From: Promethearchaeota archaeon
GTDB lineage: Archaea > Asgardarchaeota > Lokiarchaeia > Sigynarchaeales > SOKP01
Assembly (NCBI GenBank): GCA_004524515.1
Contig: SDNV01000112.1
Span: forward strand, 1 to 8,844
DNA: 8,844 nt
Direction: 5' to 3'
Shown: piece after piece, positions 1-8,844 of the stretch
Layout of the letters: the number at the start of each line of letters is the position of its first letter
How positions within the stretch are numbered: position 1 is the first letter of the stretch
Position numbers and translations under genes: made by a program
The notes under the pieces: generated by a model
The model's database searches: none
What the model was told of the DNA's origin: nothing
What the model saw: the letters and a program-made list of their open reading frames with translations, nothing else

Positions 1-603
1 AATATTAATATTTAATTTACGTAATTCTTGTCTTAAGTCAGTTAATGGTTCGACGTATATTGTATGCATTCCTAACCTCTCAGCAGGAGCTATGAATTTT
101 AAATAATCATCTAAAAAGACACATTCTGGAGCTAAAAGGTTATATCGATTTAATAAAGTTTTATATATTCCTATTTCGGGTTTAATTTTCTTTTCTTTCC
201 AGGATATAATAGATCCATCAAAAAAAGAAAAGAAATCAAACTTGTTTATTACAAACTCATATGTCTCTTTAATAAAATTAGATAATGCATAAATTTTATA
301 TCCCTTTTGTTTTAAATTTTTCATGATCTCTATATTTTTTTCAATTGGTAAAAAGATATCCAACCAATTTTCAAAAAATAATTCTAGCAAATCCTTTAAA
401 GCTGGATAATCCCTTAAAAAAATAATCTCGGCGCTATTAACTGAAATTAATCCTCGATCCATTTCAAGCCAAGTTTTACTATGAATAATATTTATCATGA
501 AAGTTTTGACTTTTAATGTATCAATGGTATATTTTGAAATGAATTCCTCTGGATTAAAAGTCAATAATACATTTCCAATATCAAAAATAATATTTTTTAT
601 CAA
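1..603 (-). CDS. HAD-superfamily hydrolase (YihX-like), 3' end cut by window edge
   Basis: The frame reads 201 residues from a TTG at 603 to the left edge without a stop. All four HAD motifs are visible. Motif I is FDIGNVL with nucleophile Asp8; the usual second Asp (+2) is Gly, as in the DxGNV branch that includes the sugar-phosphate phosphatase YihX. Motif II is YALSNF (Ser108). Motif III is Lys141 in IKPEIGIY. Motif IV is VFLDD (Asp165/166), followed by a typical AERLGMHTIYV stretch. Residues about 20-85 form the helical cap expected of subfamily I. Length is near the family's usual 200 or so residues, so only a short tail should be missing. TTG is the only usable start, because an in-frame TAA lies at 613-615 and no ATG or GTG lies between. 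It begins 17 bp after the stop of the upstream peptidase gene, so it is probably cotranscribed. The superfamily call is secure; the substrate is unknown, and a phosphatase acting on small phosphorylated metabolites is the likeliest role. Confidence 0.88.
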   Translation of the reverse strand, partial: MIKNIIFDIGNVLLTFNPEEFISKYTIDTLKVKTFMINIIHSKTWLEMDRGLISVNSAEIIFLRDYPALKDLLELFFENWLDIFLPIEKNIEIMKNLKQKGYKIYALSNFIKETYEFVINKFDFFSFFDGSIISWKEKKIKPEIGIYKTLLNRYNLLAPECVFLDDYLKFIAPAERLGMHTIYVEPLTDLRQELRKLNINI

Positions 604-2157: not shown

Positions 2158-3660
2158 CTATATCCCATAAATTGGATAAAATTTCGTTTCTAAATATTTT
2201 ATAAAATAATTCGGGTTTAAATCTTCTCCAGTTACTCTCTTAACTAAATCAAGGGGTCGATAAATTCTTCCATATTGGTGTATATTTTCCCTAAGATAGT
2301 TAAATAAAGTGTTAAAATTCCCCTTTTTAAAATCATCAGGTAAATCTGGATTTTTCTTAAGAGCATTAACATAAAATTGTGAGGCATATAAATTTCCTAA
2401 CGAATATGTCGGGAAATATCCAAATGCGCCCCCGGACCAATGAACATCTTGTAATAATCCCTGAGCGTCATTTGGAGGCGTAATATTTAAAAGATCTTCC
2501 ATTTTAGCATTCCATAGGTCTGGTAATTCAGAAACCTTTAAATTATTATTAATTAGTTCCTTTTCTATCTCAAATCTAAGAATAATATGTAAACCATAAG
2601 TTACCTCATCCGCTTCTACTCGAATAAACGAGGGTTGAACTACATTAATCGAACGATAGAATTCATATTCAGGATAATTTTTTAGATTTTCAGGAAAATA
2701 TTTTTGTAATATGGGATACCAAAAGTTCCAAAACTCTTTACTTCTACCTACAATATTTTCCCATAATCTAGATTGAGACTCATGGATACCCAAACTACTT
2801 CCATCTGCCAAAAATGTGTCATGAATCTCTTTCATAAATCCCATTTCATATAATGCATGACCACATTCATGGATTGAACCAAATAAACATGCAGGAAGAT
2901 AATTCTCCCAAATTCGAGTAGTAATTCTTGTATCCATCGAAGATACTGAAGCTGTGAAAGGATGTACTGATTTATCTTGCCGACCTCTATTAAAATCAAA
3001 ATTAAGTTTCTTTATTATTTCCATGCTTAATTTCCATTGCAATTCGGGATTATAATTTTTCTTTAAAATTTCCTGATTAGGTTTATTTGAAATTGAAGAT
3101 GCAAGTTTATTTAAAATTTTTACTAATTTCGGTTTAATTTCATTAAAGATTTTCGAAATCCATTCGGATTTTGCTTCTGGTTCATAGATATCTGTCAATG
3201 AATCATATAATGTGGGACCTACATCGAGTTTTTCAGCATATTCTCTTTGTAAAGCAACCATTTTTTCAAGATAGGATTTAAAAATTGAAAAATCACTTTT
3301 CTCTCTTGCTTTTTCCCAAGCTTGATGTCCAAGTGAGGCAGTTTTAGCAATTTCAATAACTAGCTCAATTGGAATTTTTATTGCCTTATCATATTTTCTT
3401 TTGGCTTCTCTTAATATGGCAGAATCAATTAAATTAAGATTTGGCTGATTTTCGGCTTTTTTAATCAATTGACCATTTTTTTTAGAAATTAATTTTTTAT
3501 GATGAATGGCTTCAATTAAAGCGATTTGTTCGGATCTTCCTATAGTTGCACCATCTGATTTCGGCATATATACCCGCTGGTCCCAACCTAGTAATGTCGA
3601 TATATAATTTAGCCTCATTAATTCAGTAAAACGATCCCTAAGTTCCTTTATCATACTCAT
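2158..3660 (-). CDS. M32 family metallocarboxypeptidase (carboxypeptidase Taq-like), copy B
   Basis: This 500-residue M32 zinc carboxypeptidase is the promoter-proximal member of a tandem pair. Zinc site: HECGH at 264-268 (His264, His268, catalytic Glu265) with third ligand Glu294 in HESQS. Family blocks: LLGWDQRVYMP (23-33), HPF (233-235), MDTRITT (242-248), FIRVEADEVT (345-354) and GYFPTYSLGNLY (414-425). The residue after His-Glu is Cys here and Tyr in copy A, where many family members have Phe. No signal peptide or membrane segment is seen, so it should be a cytosolic exopeptidase trimming C-terminal residues. The ATG at 3660 follows an AAAAGG-type weak SD by about 10 nt; a second in-frame ATG two codons later (3654) is a possible alternative. 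A tRNA or other gene does not intervene before copy A, so the pair is almost certainly one transcript and arose by tandem duplication. Sequence divergence shows the duplication is not recent, and the two may differ in substrate preference. Confidence 0.95.
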   Translation of the reverse strand: MSMIKELRDRFTELMRLNYISTLLGWDQRVYMPKSDGATIGRSEQIALIEAIHHKKLISKKNGQLIKKAENQPNLNLIDSAILREAKRKYDKAIKIPIELVIEIAKTASLGHQAWEKAREKSDFSIFKSYLEKMVALQREYAEKLDVGPTLYDSLTDIYEPEAKSEWISKIFNEIKPKLVKILNKLASSISNKPNQEILKKNYNPELQWKLSMEIIKKLNFDFNRGRQDKSVHPFTASVSSMDTRITTRIWENYLPACLFGSIHECGHALYEMGFMKEIHDTFLADGSSLGIHESQSRLWENIVGRSKEFWNFWYPILQKYFPENLKNYPEYEFYRSINVVQPSFIRVEADEVTYGLHIILRFEIEKELINNNLKVSELPDLWNAKMEDLLNITPPNDAQGLLQDVHWSGGAFGYFPTYSLGNLYASQFYVNALKKNPDLPDDFKKGNFNTLFNYLRENIHQYGRIYRPLDLVKRVTGEDLNPNYFIKYLETKFYPIYGI

Positions 3661-3714
3661 GTATCCAACCTTTTAAAAAATATTGATTAATCTAGATTTA
3701 ATGCAATTAATTAA

Positions 3715-3739
3715 GATTTATATCTCAAATTTTATAAAA
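3715..3739 (-). promoter_or_regulatory. Candidate archaeal TATA elements for the peptidase operon
   Basis: Two TATA-like elements read on the minus strand: TTTTATAAAA (3730-3739) and GATATAAATC (3715-3724). With the usual spacing of about 25 bp they would start transcripts near 3708 or 3694, giving a 35-50 nt leader that contains the weak SD before 3660. AT-rich background makes chance matches likely, and TTTTATAAAA is itself palindromic, so the call is tentative. Confidence 0.35.
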
Positions 3740-3755
3740 GATTAGATTAAATTGT

Positions 3756-3763
3756 AAAAAAAA
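3756..3763 (-). terminator. Oligo-T terminator after the longin-GTPase gene
   Basis: Eight consecutive T on the minus strand begin about 10 bp past the TGA at 3773-3775. Oligo-T tracts are the usual intrinsic termination signal in archaea. It lies before the candidate promoter of the peptidase genes, so the two units are probably separate transcripts. Confidence 0.5.
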
Positions 3764-3772
3764 TGAATGTTT

Positions 3773-5398
3773 TCAAAAGGTGTCTTTTTCTATTTTGTAA
3801 AAAGCATCCGCCGCTAATTTGAGATCCTCTAAGCGTAAAGGAGAATCCAAAGCTGTAGTCATTTCTTTTATAAAAAATTCACATAAATTGATATTCAACT
3901 TACTCCCTTTATCTAATAATAGTTTTTGTAATTCTAATGGTAAAATCATCTCACCTTGAGAAATAGCAGTTTCAAGAACTGATTTAAGTCTTGATTCTTG
4001 TTTTGAACTGATTTTTTGAATTAGCTCTCTTGGTTCAATTTTGCTAATGATATCTGATTCATGTATTTTTTGAATTACCTTTTTTGGCTCAATATTCTTA
4101 ATTTGTTGAATCTTTTCAATTTTTGTTTTTAGACTAATCTTAATATCTTCAGGTTTGAGAGATAATTTCTTTGATTTTGAAATTTGATCAGGAATTTGAG
4201 GTTTTGATGATGATATAGCTTTTTGTTGAGGTTTAGGAGAACTTTGTGATGTTGATTCGGTGCTTGAGGGTTTGAGAATTGTACTGGATTTAGGAAGAGA
4301 TTTAACAGAAATTTTTTTCGTAAACCTAATTTTTTCAGGGGGCATGAAACTTGTTCCACTTTCTAATCTTTTCTGCGAATTACGATGTTCCTCTAATTTA
4401 TTTTTTAATGTGTCTAATTTCAATTGAAATTGATCTAAATGAATAAAGGTTTGATATTCATAACATATGTTAATTAATTCTTCATATTTAGTAATTGCTT
4501 CTGAAATATTATTTTCTAAATAGAATTTTTCTGCCTCATTTATTAGTTCTTCAAAATTAGAGGGTAATTCTTTCTTTAAATTTAAGGCATCTCTAATAAT
4601 ATTTTCAATTTTGTTTTTTGCAATTTCCGGCTTAATCATAGAAAGTTTTTTAATATCGGGAATGTTGACCGAAATCTTAATATGCTCGAGTTCCTCTTCG
4701 CTGATATGTTCTGATTTAGTTGCAATTATTAGCATTTTAGAATATTTAGCATGAGTTTCTATTAAGCTCAAAAAATATTGAATTAATTTAGGTCCATAAT
4801 CTTTCGAATCAAATAATAAAAGAACGAGATCAGAGCCTCCAATAAATTTAGGCCATAACAATGAAAAGTTATCTTTCAGTATAAAATCCCATATATCGAA
4901 CCCCAAATTATCAATTTCATAAACCGAAGCATTTGCAAAATCCATAATTTTTTTTTCTTGACCACTTTTCATTAAATTATATAAAGTAGTCTTCCCAGAA
5001 CCGGTTGGACCTACTATTGAAATCTTAGAATGCAGTTCTTTTTGGGTAAAATAAAGAAAATTTATAAAATCTTTTTTTTCTAAACTTTCTTCTGTAATAT
5101 CTTCTGGATTTTCAAAAAGATCTTTAAACTTGTTAATTATTTTTATTAAGTTATCATTAACATATTCAAAAGAATCAATTAGATCTACAATAATTAAAAA
5201 GTATGTATTTCCATAGGAGCGGTGAAAAATCTGAAATTTAGATAATGGACGGTGAAGAGTCTCACCTGGAGTAGGCAAAATCATATTAGGTTCGATAATT
5301 TTTATCACTTGTTTTAGCTCTTCACCACCTAAAGCTAAAGCTAGTGCATAGCTAAAAATTGGTTTTTGATTGTGATAAATATATATTTGCCTTAACAT
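3773..5398 (-). CDS. Longin-like domain fused to degenerate Arf/Ras-like GTPase, with disordered linker and C-terminal helical domain
   Basis: The 541-residue protein has several parts. Residues 1-95 alternate strands and helices like a longin/roadblock fold (IYIYHNQKPIFSY at the start, then FQIFHRSYGNTYFLIIVD). Residues 125-275 resemble a small GTPase: P-loop GPTGSGKT at 130-137, then FDIWDF (167-172), LLWPKFIGGSDLVLLLFDSKD (180-200) and ATKSE (226-230). This follows the Arf pattern WDxGGQ...LW...DSND...NKxD, but switch II has lost Gly and Gln and the base-recognition NKxD has become TKSE. It may therefore bind nucleotide without normal hydrolysis or guanine specificity. Residues 280-345 look TPR/MIT-like helical; 347-425 is Ser/Pro/Lys/Gln-rich and probably disordered; 470-541 is helical and unrecognised. 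No membrane segment is seen. Longin and small-GTPase proteins of this kind are abundant in Asgard archaea. The ATG at 5398 is forced by an in-frame stop three codons upstream and has no SD nearby, suggesting a leaderless mRNA. A role in membrane or scaffold dynamics is inference. Confidence 0.85.
   Translation of the reverse strand: MLRQIYIYHNQKPIFSYALALALGGEELKQVIKIIEPNMILPTPGETLHRPLSKFQIFHRSYGNTYFLIIVDLIDSFEYVNDNLIKIINKFKDLFENPEDITEESLEKKDFINFLYFTQKELHSKISIVGPTGSGKTTLYNLMKSGQEKKIMDFANASVYEIDNLGFDIWDFILKDNFSLLWPKFIGGSDLVLLLFDSKDYGPKLIQYFLSLIETHAKYSKMLIIATKSEHISEEELEHIKISVNIPDIKKLSMIKPEIAKNKIENIIRDALNLKKELPSNFEELINEAEKFYLENNISEAITKYEELINICYEYQTFIHLDQFQLKLDTLKNKLEEHRNSQKRLESGTSFMPPEKIRFTKKISVKSLPKSSTILKPSSTESTSQSSPKPQQKAISSSKPQIPDQISKSKKLSLKPEDIKISLKTKIEKIQQIKNIEPKKVIQKIHESDIISKIEPRELIQKISSKQESRLKSVLETAISQGEMILPLELQKLLLDKGSKLNINLCEFFIKEMTTALDSPLRLEDLKLAADAFYKIEKDTF
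4012..4093 (-). repeat. Two imperfect 28-bp copies, 54 bp apart, inside the longin-GTPase gene
   Basis: Copies at 4012-4039 and 4066-4093 differ at 4 of 28 bases and are offset by exactly 54 bp (18 codons). They encode IEPKKVIQKI (residues 436-445) and IEPRELIQKI (454-463). This is an in-frame duplication of a short helical or linear motif next to the disordered linker; it might be a binding motif used twice. Confidence 0.7.
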
Positions 5399-5674: not shown

Positions 5675-6631
5675 ATGCCCTTAGAATCTCATCATATCAT
5701 CCGTTTTCTTAAGAATACTGCAAATGACAAATTCAATTCAGATCTTTTTGATCTATTGATAAAAAGAATCAATAAGCTTTGTTTTGAAGAATGTCAAATA
5801 GACCGTATTCAATGCACACTCACTCCGCTATGCACTAAACGATTTTTGTTGAAATTAAGAATTAAAAATTTATTACCTTTAGATGATCTACCTAAATTTT
5901 GTTATAGTGTTCAAAAAAATATTGTTATGCGAGATTTTAGAGGTAAAACCGTTGTTTATAGACCATTTGATGCGTATTTATATTTAGTTGATTTCTTGGA
6001 TATTTTTTTCCATGGTGATTATAGAAAATTAAATAAATTTATTTCTCTCCAAAAATGGGATGACGCGCTAGAAATCTTTGATGATAGAATTAAGAACCGG
6101 GATGAAAATTTTCGCTATACATTGAAAGGAAATTATATGATATTTAAATTCGATGATCGGATTCATATTATTTTTATTGAGGAGAAATATGTTTTATGTA
6201 ATGCCAATCGAGAGAGTATCGTATCTCTTGAATTATTGGGAGCAATTTGTGAATTTTATGCGAATATTTATTTTCCTGAAGTAAAAGTAAAATTGGTACG
6301 ATCTGAAAAAGTGGAGATCACTACAATTTTACCTAAAGATATTATAAGCAAAATTTCTCAGGATTCTGTCGCTGCAGAAAATCCCTCAAAATTGGATCAT
6401 TATTTTTGGAATGTGTTTCATGAGGATCTGGAATCCCTCCTACAATTTTGTAAAGCAATTCATTTAGAATATGACTGGATGGGAAATTTATTAATAAAAT
6501 TAGGGATAAATTTAGAGACAAACAATTTTGATGAGGAGGGAAATAAGATGAGATTAAGATATCGAGATCTTCGATTTTTATTGAATTTTATCCAGCGTTT
6601 GTATAACGAGTTTTATGTAATTTGGTTGTAA
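5675..6631 (+). CDS. Unrecognised protein with N-terminal four-cysteine cluster
   Basis: The 318-residue product belongs to no family I can name. It is soluble-looking, with no signal peptide or clear membrane helix, and mixes alpha and beta segments. Residues 36-53 hold four cysteines spaced C-x3-C-x6-C-x5-C, half of the eight in the protein, which could ligate Zn or an Fe-S cluster, though spacing matches no motif I know. Beta-rich segments run through 145-178 (FRYTLKGNYMIFKF, RIHIIFIEEKYVL); the C-terminus (250-318) is helical and ends in aromatic YNEFYVIWL. The ATG at 5675 has a TATA-like element 17-27 nt upstream and no SD. The following HEAT-like gene starts 32 bp after the stop, so the two are probably cotranscribed and may act together. 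Codon use resembles the neighbours, so recent transfer is not evident. The reading frame is real by length, composition and tight packing; the function is unknown. Confidence 0.8.
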   Translation: MPLESHHIIRFLKNTANDKFNSDLFDLLIKRINKLCFEECQIDRIQCTLTPLCTKRFLLKLRIKNLLPLDDLPKFCYSVQKNIVMRDFRGKTVVYRPFDAYLYLVDFLDIFFHGDYRKLNKFISLQKWDDALEIFDDRIKNRDENFRYTLKGNYMIFKFDDRIHIIFIEEKYVLCNANRESIVSLELLGAICEFYANIYFPEVKVKLVRSEKVEITTILPKDIISKISQDSVAAENPSKLDHYFWNVFHEDLESLLQFCKAIHLEYDWMGNLLIKLGINLETNNFDEEGNKMRLRYRDLRFLLNFIQRLYNEFYVIWL

Positions 6632-6648
6632 TAATAAAAATTAATTAA

Positions 6649-6656
6649 GATGTGAT
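6649..6656 (+). promoter_or_regulatory. Weak Shine-Dalgarno-like site for the HEAT-like gene
   Basis: GATGTGAT resembles the GGTGAT part of the archaeal anti-SD partner and ends 7 nt before the ATG at 6664. It overlaps the alternative GTG at 6652, so it favours ATG 6664 as the start. Confidence 0.35.
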
Positions 6657-6663
6657 TAAAAAT

Positions 6664-7911
6664 ATGGAAGATGTAAGAAATGATGATGATATAATGCAAA
6701 CGATTAGAAAAATGACATCTGAAGGTAAAATCGATGCGGTTGTCGAGAAAATTGCCGATTATCTAAATCAATCAAATGAAGAAAATTATATTGAACGATT
6801 AGAAAATGTTTTAGAAACGGTTTCAACTCTGATGGGTGGTAGAACGGTTATAAGATTTCTTATTGAAAATTCAATTATAGATATCCCCACCTTGTTAGAA
6901 AATCTTTCAAAAAAAGATTCTCTTTTGAGATATTCTTTCCTATTACTTCTTAAAGATATGTGTGAAAATGAAGAAGATTTATTTTTACCTCATAGTGAAG
7001 AATTACTGACATCAGAGGATCCAAATGTACGAGAAGCATTTCTACAGCTTTTAATTTTCATAGCTGGAGGAGAGAGAGAAATAGAAGACGAGATATTAAT
7101 AGAATTAATTGCCTCAAGATTAGTGGATGATAAAGATTTTGTTATTGAAAAAGCAGTCCAAACTTTAAAAACAATCGGAAAAAAAAATCCCTCTCTAATT
7201 ACGAAAACATTAAAAAAATATACTAAAGAGTGTTCTGAGAATGAAGAATTAAAGAAAAACGTTGATGAAATTTTAAAGTCAATAGTTACCGTAGAGAAAA
7301 TTGAAGAGATTGTAGAAGAAGAAGAATCTAAGACTGAACCAGTGGCACAAGAATTAGTGGAAAAGGAAAAGAAATTGGAATATAAAGAAATAGAATTAAA
7401 TGAAAAAGAAAAAAAATTGGAGGATAAAGAAGCGGAGCTTGAAGTGAAAGAAATTTTATCCAGTTTTGATTTAACACAAATAGAAAAGGAAAAGCAACTA
7501 AAAGAAAAAGAGATCGAATTAGAGGAAAAGGAAATAGAACTAAAGGAAAAAGAGATGAAATTGGATTTAAAAGGGAAAGCTGAAAAAGTAGAATTGCCTA
7601 AGAAATTGGTCAAAGAAGAAAAAGAGATTTTAGATAAAGAGATTGAATTGAAGAAGAAAGATCTTGAAATCAAAAAGAAAAAATTAGAATTAGAAGAGAA
7701 ACAAAAAGATTTAGAAGCAATCGAGATAATTGAAAAACAAAAAACACTAAAAATTAAGGAAGAGCTAATTCAAAAAGAGCGAGACTTGGAAGAAGTAGAA
7801 ATTGAGTTAAAAAAGAAATCGATTGAGGAAAAAGAAAGGAAAATTATGGAAGATGAAGCTAAAAGAATAAGGGAAAAAATTAGGGAATTGGAAAAAAAAA
7901 AGAAACTATAA
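6664..7911 (+). CDS. HEAT-like repeat protein with long Lys/Glu-rich helical tail
   Basis: The 415-residue protein has two halves. Residues 1 to about 210 are paired helices like HEAT/ARM repeats, with DPNVREAFLQLL (119-130) and DKDFVIEKAVQTLKTIG (156-172) the clearest units. From about 229 to the end it is almost only Lys, Glu, Leu and Ile, with Leu recurring about every seven residues. That suits a coiled coil or a single stable alpha-helix, potentially about 25-28 nm if continuous (inference from 1.5 angstrom per residue). A proline around residue 312 may kink it. HEAT solenoids usually bind proteins and such helices act as spacers or oligomerising rods, so a scaffold role is plausible; nothing suggests an enzyme. 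ATG 6664 is chosen over in-frame GTG 6652 (adds four residues) because of the SD-like GTGAT before it. It lies 32 bp after the upstream gene and probably shares its transcript. Database matches of the tail to other coiled coils would be compositional only. Confidence 0.82.
   Translation: MEDVRNDDDIMQTIRKMTSEGKIDAVVEKIADYLNQSNEENYIERLENVLETVSTLMGGRTVIRFLIENSIIDIPTLLENLSKKDSLLRYSFLLLLKDMCENEEDLFLPHSEELLTSEDPNVREAFLQLLIFIAGGEREIEDEILIELIASRLVDDKDFVIEKAVQTLKTIGKKNPSLITKTLKKYTKECSENEELKKNVDEILKSIVTVEKIEEIVEEEESKTEPVAQELVEKEKKLEYKEIELNEKEKKLEDKEAELEVKEILSSFDLTQIEKEKQLKEKEIELEEKEIELKEKEMKLDLKGKAEKVELPKKLVKEEKEILDKEIELKKKDLEIKKKKLELEEKQKDLEAIEIIEKQKTLKIKEELIQKERDLEEVEIELKKKSIEEKERKIMEDEAKRIREKIRELEKKKKL
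7360..7566 (+). repeat. 14-residue charged repeats encoding the helical tail
   Basis: Four recognisable 42-bp/14-residue units encode the pattern EKEKxLxxKExEL: residues 233-246, 247-260, 274-287 and 288-301 of the ATG-6664 product. The two pairs are split by a less regular 13-residue stretch containing SSFDLTQ. The units suggest tail growth by tandem duplication of two-heptad blocks. Confidence 0.7.
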
Positions 7912-8017: not shown

Positions 8018-8844
8018 TTATATAATATCCTTTTGCTCAGTAATAGGAGTTGTATGTAGCCTCCTTACCAATTCTCTCACTTGAGCAACTTGAGCACTTT
8101 CAGGTGCTAAATTTAACTGGATTTTTTTTGCTAAATTATAAGCAAGCTCTATAAACTCAAGATCTTCCAGCATTTCTACAATTTGAATCTGAGCATCAAT
8201 GTCTTGTATTCCGAATTTATCTCCTAGACTTTCACCATATTCTAAAAGTTTTTCTTTGAGTAGTACATCTATTTTTTGAGATCGCTCAACATATTTTACT
8301 TTTTTTACGAGTTGTTTAAAACTATTCATTATATTATACAGTTCGCTTTTTGGATACTCGTCAATATTTTTCAACACATAAAAAATATAAATCTCTGCCT
8401 TTTCATACCGTTTTAATTTAAGACTTATATCAAGCAATTCTAAAAGAGCTAACTCATACAAGAATTTACTATCGATATTTGGAATAATTTTTTCAAAAAT
8501 CCAATCGAGAATATTAGGTTGATCAAATTTTTCAATAATATCTATTAGAAATTTAATTACTGAGAAATATAATTTTGCATTTTCTGTTTTTGTAGAACTT
8601 AAAAATGAGATTAAAGCATATTTAACTCGTCCCATTGCATCTTCTAAATTCATGGGAGTCTCAGTAAATTTATAAAAAGCGGATTCTAAAATGGGTTTTA
8701 TTTTCTCTTTTGCGTCAAAATCGTAGACAAAATAATCACCCCAATTAGGACTTAAAGCTGTTTTTTCTGTTTTTTTACTAATTTTTCTCTCTTGTGCATC
8801 TTTTTCTTGTTTTGGTTTTTTAGTTTTTAATTTTTCAGAAAAAT
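8018..8844 (-). CDS. Alpha-helical TPR-like protein with Lys-rich N-terminal segment, 5' end cut by window edge
   Basis: The frame is open from the right edge to the TAA at 8018, giving 274 residues with the true start outside the window. The first in-window ATG (8653) is internal: about 63 in-frame codons lie upstream without a stop, and no SD precedes it. The extra part begins with a Lys/Glu/Gln-rich, probably disordered stretch (KTKKPKQEKDAQERK), then LSPNWGDYFVYDF and a helix (AKEKIKPILESAFYKF). The rest is helical throughout with TPR/solenoid-like pairs, for example FLYELALLELLDISLKLKRYEKAEIYIFYVL and EMLEDLEFIELAYNLAKKI, ending in VRELVRRLHTTPITEQKDII. I recognise no family and see no catalytic motif, signal peptide or membrane helix. 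It converges on the HEAT-like gene with 106 bp between the stops. The likeliest role is protein binding; this is inferred from fold type only. Confidence 0.78.
   Translation of the reverse strand, partial: FSEKLKTKKPKQEKDAQERKISKKTEKTALSPNWGDYFVYDFDAKEKIKPILESAFYKFTETPMNLEDAMGRVKYALISFLSSTKTENAKLYFSVIKFLIDIIEKFDQPNILDWIFEKIIPNIDSKFLYELALLELLDISLKLKRYEKAEIYIFYVLKNIDEYPKSELYNIMNSFKQLVKKVKYVERSQKIDVLLKEKLLEYGESLGDKFGIQDIDAQIQIVEMLEDLEFIELAYNLAKKIQLNLAPESAQVAQVRELVRRLHTTPITEQKDII

Follow-up and report, generated by a model that had tools for sequence, protein, structure and literature searches.

The window, by which we mean the whole stretch of 8,844 nucleotides that was analysed, contains a gene, here called c1, which is encoded on the minus strand as an open reading frame of 541 amino acids that starts with ATG, while the plus-strand frame of the same interval has 58 stops (Table 1). 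An earlier reading made from the sequence only had located this gene correctly but gave no strand. The peptide stretches that it quoted, which were GPTGSGKT, DFILKD, LWPKF...LLLFDSKD and TKSE, are all present in the protein, and the longin domain and the GTPase domain that it described in one chain are indeed parts of the single 541-aa reading frame. Three other genes of the window, c2, c3 and c4, are considered below together with c1. The window also contains two tandem genes of M32 carboxypeptidases on the minus strand, one at 621–2117 (Pfam 4e-167) and one at 2158–3660, which clusters with it; they were found near c1 in 17 of 22 neighbourhood sources. A HAD-type phosphatase gene is located at the edge of the window (1–603, minus strand; Pfam HAD_2, 2e-9).

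Table 1. Features of the c1 locus, in window positions with residue numbers of the c1 protein; some of the 22 neighbourhood sources are cut by contig ends, and counts over 120 proteins refer to the best 120 of 213 relatives.
Feature	Position	Strand	Basis or content
c1, whole gene, 541 aa	3773..5398	-	longin and small-GTPase domains, then helices, a linker of low confidence and a three-helix C-terminal domain
Longin domain like sigma-adaptin, residues 1-121, elements in the order bb-a-bbb-aa	5036..5398	-	AlphaFold elements and profile matches
Small-GTPase (Arf/Ras-like) domain, residues about 122-276	4571..5035	-	Pfam, fold matches
P-loop GPTGSGKT, intact, residues 130-137	4988..5011	-	sequence
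Switch I region EKKIMDFA, residues 148-155	4934..4957	-	Pro-Thr replaced by Met then Asp/Asn
Switch II region WDFILKDNF, residues 170-178, replacing WDxGGQ/WDFAGQ	4865..4891	-	alignment of 45 rows
G4 motif TKSE, NKxD variant, residues 227-230	4709..4720	-	sequence
Helices 282-348, TPR-like three-helix region, counterpart in paralogues	4355..4555	-	AlphaFold; weak TPR/MIT/Vps54 matches, none decisive
Linker motif VKSLP, residues 365-369	4292..4306	-	V, L and P invariant in 120/120
Low-confidence, presumably disordered linker, residues 369-482	3953..4294	-	AlphaFold pLDDT
C-terminal three-helix domain, residues 486-540	3779..3943	-	AlphaFold; Leu-Cys 505-506 invariant in 120/120
c2 (318 aa), divergently oriented to c1, N-terminus rich in cysteines	5675..6631	+	alignment A3, genome neighbourhoods
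c4, HEAT repeats and long coiled coil	6652..7911	+	near c1 in 18/22 sources
c3, 5' end outside the window	8018..8842	-	near c1 in 17/22 sources; alignment A9

A search of 5.8 billion proteins returned 213 relatives of c1 at E ≤ 1e-3. Among the best 120 of these 213, which are the proteins behind all motif counts over 120 given here, 117 aligned across 96–100% of the query, and the identity to c1, with c1 itself excepted, was between 38% and 70%. Because 213 proteins match and 117 of the 120 listed do so nearly over the full length, the reading frame is far beyond what would arise by chance. For those of the best 120 that came with an organism name, it was Promethearchaeota, Lokiarchaeota, Thorarchaeota, Hodarchaeota or Hermodarchaeota. 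When the phylum was searched with c1, matches at E ≤ 1e-20 were found in 78 of 227 genomes. The c1 family was taken to include matches down to about 3e-76, while the next ones, at ~2e-53, were paralogues; so defined, it is present in 62 of the 227 genomes, a count that includes some partial matches (e.g., in G085, G126 and G153) and leaves out a C-terminal fragment in G125 (5.6e-41).

The structure of the whole c1 chain was predicted by AlphaFold using a 44-row alignment, and the confidence was high across residues 1–276. The predicted elements at the N-terminus were strands 3–9 and 12–18, helix 25–40, strands 48–51, 56–62 and 65–71, and helices 77–94 and 106–121, with a short extra helix (98–102) between the last two longin helices. 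A roadblock domain in place of a longin domain was ruled out by this strand order, and no roadblock chain was present among the PDB matches of the c1 longin profiles, although such an absence is weak evidence. When a longin profile built only from the c1 family was compared with the PDB, the best match was AP-2 sigma (E 1.6e-5), with residues 1–102 aligned on 1–102, while other AP sigma chains had E values from 0.018 to 0.6, among unrelated chains scoring alike, and VAMP7 had 0.42. With a wider profile including paralogues the values were 4e-5 for AP-2 sigma and 0.0095 for VAMP7. A profile of paralogues only (13 rows) gave no longin match in the PDB, which argues against the idea that the longin domains of Asgard longin-GTPases resemble sigma chains in general and indicates that the likeness rests on the c1 family. 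The longin domains of the c1 family and of the paralogues are homologous (hhalign E 2.6e-18).

The Clat_adaptor_s and SRP-alpha_N families of Pfam both hold longin domains. The N-terminal domain of the window protein had no Pfam match, and Clat_adaptor_s was detected neither for c1 at E ≤ 10 nor for its longin domain alone. Among 44 members of the c1 family, Clat_adaptor_s matched seven weakly (best E 7e-4) and SRP-alpha_N matched five, also weakly; when the N-terminal domains were scanned alone, with paralogues included, the matches were Clat_adaptor_s in 14 of 40, Longin in 1 of 40, and SRP-alpha_N in 1 of 40. The predicted strand order and the profile matches to AP sigma and VAMP7 agree with the longin domain that the sequence-only reading had placed at the N-terminus. 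The N-terminal domain of c1 is a longin domain, and in the c1 family it looks most like an AP small chain.

The longin domain is followed in c1 by the only GTPase domain found in the protein, which is of the Roc/Arf type, with both Pfam Roc and Pfam Arf above their cut-offs. The fold matches of this domain were small and translation-type GTPases; RhoE/Rnd3 structures were among them, tied with many others. An ABC, AAA or other P-loop class was rejected, as AAA_22 and ABC_tran appeared in Pfam only below the cut-offs and the fold matches were GTPases, so that the earlier assignment of residues 125–275 to a small GTPase is borne out. In the best 120 of the 213 relatives both P-loop glycines are present in all 120 and the lysine in 117. 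The exact TKSE sequence at G4 was found only in c1 among these best 120 relatives, the three nearest relatives of c1 have NKSE, and NKxD is kept in 105 of the 120; in the 45-row set described below, the G4 asparagine is absent in 8 rows and the aspartate in 4. The loss of guanine-recognition residues claimed before is thus local and is not supported for the family. The G4 motif of Rac is TKLD, and by analogy a G4 motif with T in the first position and E in place of D may still bind guanine. According to PMC12554972, a free N-terminal amphipathic helix is diagnostic of Arf and ArfR; c1 has no such free helix, its G domain being preceded by the longin domain within one polypeptide.

To compare the switch regions, 45 family rows were aligned, consisting of the window protein, 38 loci, and 6 proteins from the 213-relative search, after 13 loci repeating others (L002, L041–L052) had been removed. 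The locus rows were chosen by their P-loop pattern, so the P-loop count in these 45 rows is not an independent test. The 18 sampled longin-GTPase paralogues were from 16 of 19 usable loci (L065, L069 and L078 were missed by the pattern), together with L003 and L004, while L005–L011 were left out. The DxxG glycine was present in 0 of the 45 family rows and 0 of the best 120 of the 213 relatives, whereas it was present in 18 of the 18 paralogues. The switch II glutamine was found in 1 of 45 family rows versus 18 of 18 paralogues. The Pro-Thr of switch I was missing in all 45 rows, with threonine at position 153 in 0 of 45 as compared with 18 of 18, and PT, AGQ and NK-D were all kept in each of the 18 paralogues. 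Hence, the altered switch II that had been noticed in c1 is a trait of the whole family.

What had been missed is that no part of the protein is better conserved than the changed switch II, and that switch I is changed too. The top-conserved 25-residue window of the c1 protein was 167–191, corresponding to the altered switch II (0.86 in 45 rows); the P-loop region was second among the scored regions (0.80), and the G4 region had 0.78. As the altered segment is the best-conserved window, switch II is under selection and has been re-purposed rather than decayed. At position 173, 93 of the best 120 of the 213 relatives have Gln or Glu; c1 and its 11 nearest relatives have I, V or L there.

The helices at residues 282–348 were compared with Vps54_N, TPR_2 and MIT domains, which matched in 8 of 29 (best 3.8e-4), 5 of 29, and 3 of 29 cases, respectively, and none of these identities was accepted; the PDB matches of this region were scattered among PPR, TPR and designed proteins. 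Further along the chain, the pLDDT was below 50 at residues 369–412, 435–467, 469–471 and 473–482. The C-terminal domain had no PDB match below 0.4, and its Pfam matches were scattered, with SapB_1 as the best (4 of 22, at 7e-4). The low pLDDT of the linker and the absence of a clear PDB or Pfam match for the C-terminal domain are in agreement with the disordered linker and the novel helical C-terminus proposed previously.

The genome that contains locus L001 also holds the longin-GTPases L003 and L004, with intact DFAGQ and NKQD sequences. In a tree calculated without the switch columns, a single branch with an SH-aLRT support of 100 separated the c1 family from the paralogues; this tree was of a quick kind, without an outside root, and had long-branch warnings, among them for L059, L060 and L079. 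Locus L005 matches c1 only from residue 124 on and has WDYTGVE where others have AGQ, which means that not every GTPase of such kind in this genome keeps the glutamine. The L005 frame continues after the GTPase with additional domains, among which there is another P-loop of the GTPase-like kind.

Five longin domains fused to lokiarchaeal Arf-like GTPases are cited in PMC4917890, and longin-GTPase architectures were modelled in MK-D1 and placed near Rag and Arf (PMC10933270). Hence, the longin–Arf fusion, which the sequence-only reading took for the component most likely to be undescribed, had been described already. A clathrin adaptor small-chain domain was reported in Asgard genomes (PMC10307638), as were longin domains that are linked with Vps28 or with adaptin-appendage regions (PMC10936438); because of these reports, the presence of a sigma-like domain in Asgards is no novelty either. 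In the literature searched, with most subscription papers outside reach, neither the switchless subfamily nor its gene module was found to be described. Overall, c1 is a real, widespread variant of the already known longin-GTPase type, while the switchless subfamily, its sigma-like longin domain and its module are new as far as searched.

Nearly all relatives have c2 as the neighbour of c1: the two genes are no more than about 2 kb apart (maximum 2,002 bases) in 59 of the 62 genomes, being divergent in 57 of them and on the same strand in 2. The exceptions were G088, where c2 is 87 kb away, and G089 and G091, where it is on another contig. Six genomes had strong c2 matches (down to about 6e-41 as taken) without a c1-family member above the cut, and some c2 matches were pieces at contig ends (G129, G154). 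In 32 aligned rows, cysteines 36, 40, 53 and 76 of c2 are invariant and cysteine 47 is nearly invariant, a pattern that could possibly be metal-binding. The structure model of c2 was confident; no clear PDB match was found for it, and the sequence had no Pfam match at E ≤ 1. The spread of c2 is broader than that of c1, with matches at E ≤ 1e-10 in 148 of 227 genomes, many of them over part of the length. Of 20 further loci that were fetched, 19 held c2, and in 9 of these 19, from distant Asgard genomes (L081, L084, L085, L088, L090, L092, L094, L095 and L096), it adjoins a large protein of about 1000–1700 aa (~1300). A TrmB-type winged helix and long helical stretches were found in all three of these nine large proteins that were scanned, and the one in L085 matched TrmBL2 in the PDB (3e-5). 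Because c2 is spread more widely and is elsewhere located beside a large protein, c2 may be the older of the two, with c1 as its partner in particular lineages.

HEAT repeats were detected in 15 of 16 c4 members. The identification of c4 as an adaptin was not adopted: Adaptin_N matched in 2 of 16 (best 9e-6), but a HEAT-only profile found designed alpha-repeats first in the PDB, followed by Integrator and CAND1 among others, with AP-4 epsilon at 0.12, so that these matches are generic for HEAT repeats. Full-length relatives of c3 have the sequence KKTKTGITFPKxLR at their N-terminus, and it resembles the hairpin of AbrB/MazE (a MazE match at 0.0088 in 1 of 13); c3 had no PDB match below 0.8. 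In L001, a second short piece of a c3 C-terminus, apparently a broken copy, lies beside the c4 gene (3707–4063).

The arrangement of these genes varies. In two distant genomes (L059 and L099) c1, c2 and c4 are on one strand, while in the genome from which both L097 and L098 come, c3 is directly before c1, and c2 and c4 are together elsewhere. The persistence of the linkage through such rearrangements indicates a shared function of the module genes, although part of the gene order may reflect general synteny among close relatives, as the M32 genes also recur in 17 of 22 sources. Judged by gene order, the products of c1, c2, c3 and c4 may be in physical contact. Downstream of the c1-c2-c4 run in L059 there are a PIG-L deacetylase gene and an actin gene (2698–3798 and 3817–4566, both minus strand; Pfam Actin 4.5e-78, PIG-L 7e-22), and genes at 13031–14910 (plus strand) of L099 appear to resemble this pair.

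We give an even chance to the explanation that c1 is a constitutive scaffold, which holds a nucleotide but does not cycle, and which was derived from a longin-GTPase switch. In such a scaffold the G domain would hold the nucleotide through its P-loop and G4 motif as a structural cofactor and would not cycle between GTP and GDP states. Residues 167–191, the re-specified face of switch II, could be a permanent dock for the protein's own longin domain, as SR-beta is for SRX, or for c2 or c4, while other proteins of the module would be tethered by the VKxLP-bearing linker and by the three helices of the C-terminal domain. A fixed scaffold rather than an on/off switch is probable because the switch parts are replaced by strongly conserved sequence. 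RGK proteins, which lack DxxGQ, keep weak hydrolysis activity, and by this analogy the loss of the glycine and the glutamine would not prove that hydrolysis is lost in c1. Because most relatives keep NKxD, nucleotide binding is possible, perhaps with slow cycling in which a partner acts as a GAP. A fairly unlikely alternative goes further and takes c1 to be an active GTPase with non-canonical catalysis, in which c2, c4 or the longin domain would provide a catalytic group and the altered switches would still move. This could explain the conservation of the P-loop glycines (120/120) and NKxD (105/120) in the best 120 of the 213 relatives, which would be wasted without GTP, and the maximal conservation of the changed switch II, as expected of a catalytic element; the Gln or Glu at position 173 in 93 of the same 120 also favors it. 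However, I, V or L at this position in c1 and its 11 nearest relatives indicates that Gln or Glu is not required. Moreover, 45 of 45 rows lack the threonine of switch I and the glycine of DxxG, which known small GTPases need in order to sense the gamma-phosphate and Mg.

The opposite possibility, that c1 is a nucleotide-free pseudo-GTPase, in which the fold is only a protein-binding module and the P-loop a leftover, appears decidedly improbable. It is consistent with the loss of the switch residues, with TKSE in c1, and with the absence of the G4 asparagine or aspartate in some rows (8 and 4 of 45), but without a nucleotide the P-loop and G4 regions would be expected to decay, while their conservation is high (0.80 and 0.78). 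It is also quite unlikely that c1 belongs to a gene-regulation or nucleoid device instead of a membrane one. The large neighbour of c2 in 9 of 19 c2-holding loci, with TrmB in 3 of 3 scanned, and the TGITFPKxLR sequence of c3 relatives, which resembles AbrB/MazE, could point to such a device; on the other hand, the resemblance to AbrB is weak, with a match in 1 of 13, Pfam found no DNA-binding family in c1 itself, and the longin and Arf-like folds of c1 are typical of membranes in eukaryotes. A more far-reaching proposal, which should be regarded as a long shot, is that the locus encodes an archaeal coat- or adaptor-like assembly, with c1, in which a sigma-like longin and an Arf-like domain would be permanently joined and the GTP switch frozen, as a structural subunit together with the HEAT-solenoid/coiled-coil protein c4, the largely helical c3, and the cysteine-rich c2. 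If true, archaea would have their own equivalent of the core of AP and COPI coats, which consists of longin, Arf and solenoid.

Small GTPases are very numerous in Asgard archaea, and the c1 family bears on the question of what use was made of them before eukaryotic trafficking existed. With its gene set, c1 offers a defined test of whether longin–Arf pairs first served as fixed scaffolds. The c1 family also suggests that some of the GTPases counted in Asgard genomes are probably not switches. The surprise in c1 is not the fusion but the fixed, strongly selected switch II.

The c1 family shares with the Asgard longin-Arf/Rag-like GTPases the order of longin domain, G domain and TPR-like helices, a homologous longin domain, and the presence in the same genome, while it differs from the sampled paralogues in having no switch residues. 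The conserved linker motif, the C-terminal domain and the c2 neighbourhood are its own features as compared with the canonical longin-GTPases. The likeness to AP sigma subunits is seen in the best PDB match of the family longin profile, which is in register with AP-2 sigma 1–102. However, AP sigma is a separate chain in a heterotetramer and has no GTPase, while the longin domain of c1, which Clat_adaptor_s does not match, is fused to a G domain. In the SRP receptor, the SRX longin domain sits on the Arf-like SR-beta, and c1 resembles it in the pairing of a longin domain with an Arf-like G domain and in the weak SRP-alpha_N matches (5 of 44). In contrast to the SRP receptor, the longin chain of c1 has no NG GTPase domain and only one GTPase domain, of the Roc/Arf type; in eukaryotes SRX and SR-beta are two chains, and SR-beta keeps its GTP-sensing switch II. 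The RGK GTPases (Rad, Gem, Kir) have, in place of DxxGQ, a sequence that is conserved in their family and particular to it, and they keep nucleotide binding, and the Rnd proteins have lost catalytic residues while still binding nucleotide. The c1 family is similar to the RGK proteins in its conserved replacement of switch II and to the Rnd proteins in the loss of catalytic residues, although those are eukaryotic members of the Ras superfamily, without a longin domain and with another replacement sequence. By analogy, SRX/SR-beta and the RGK proteins would be the closest functional parallels of c1.
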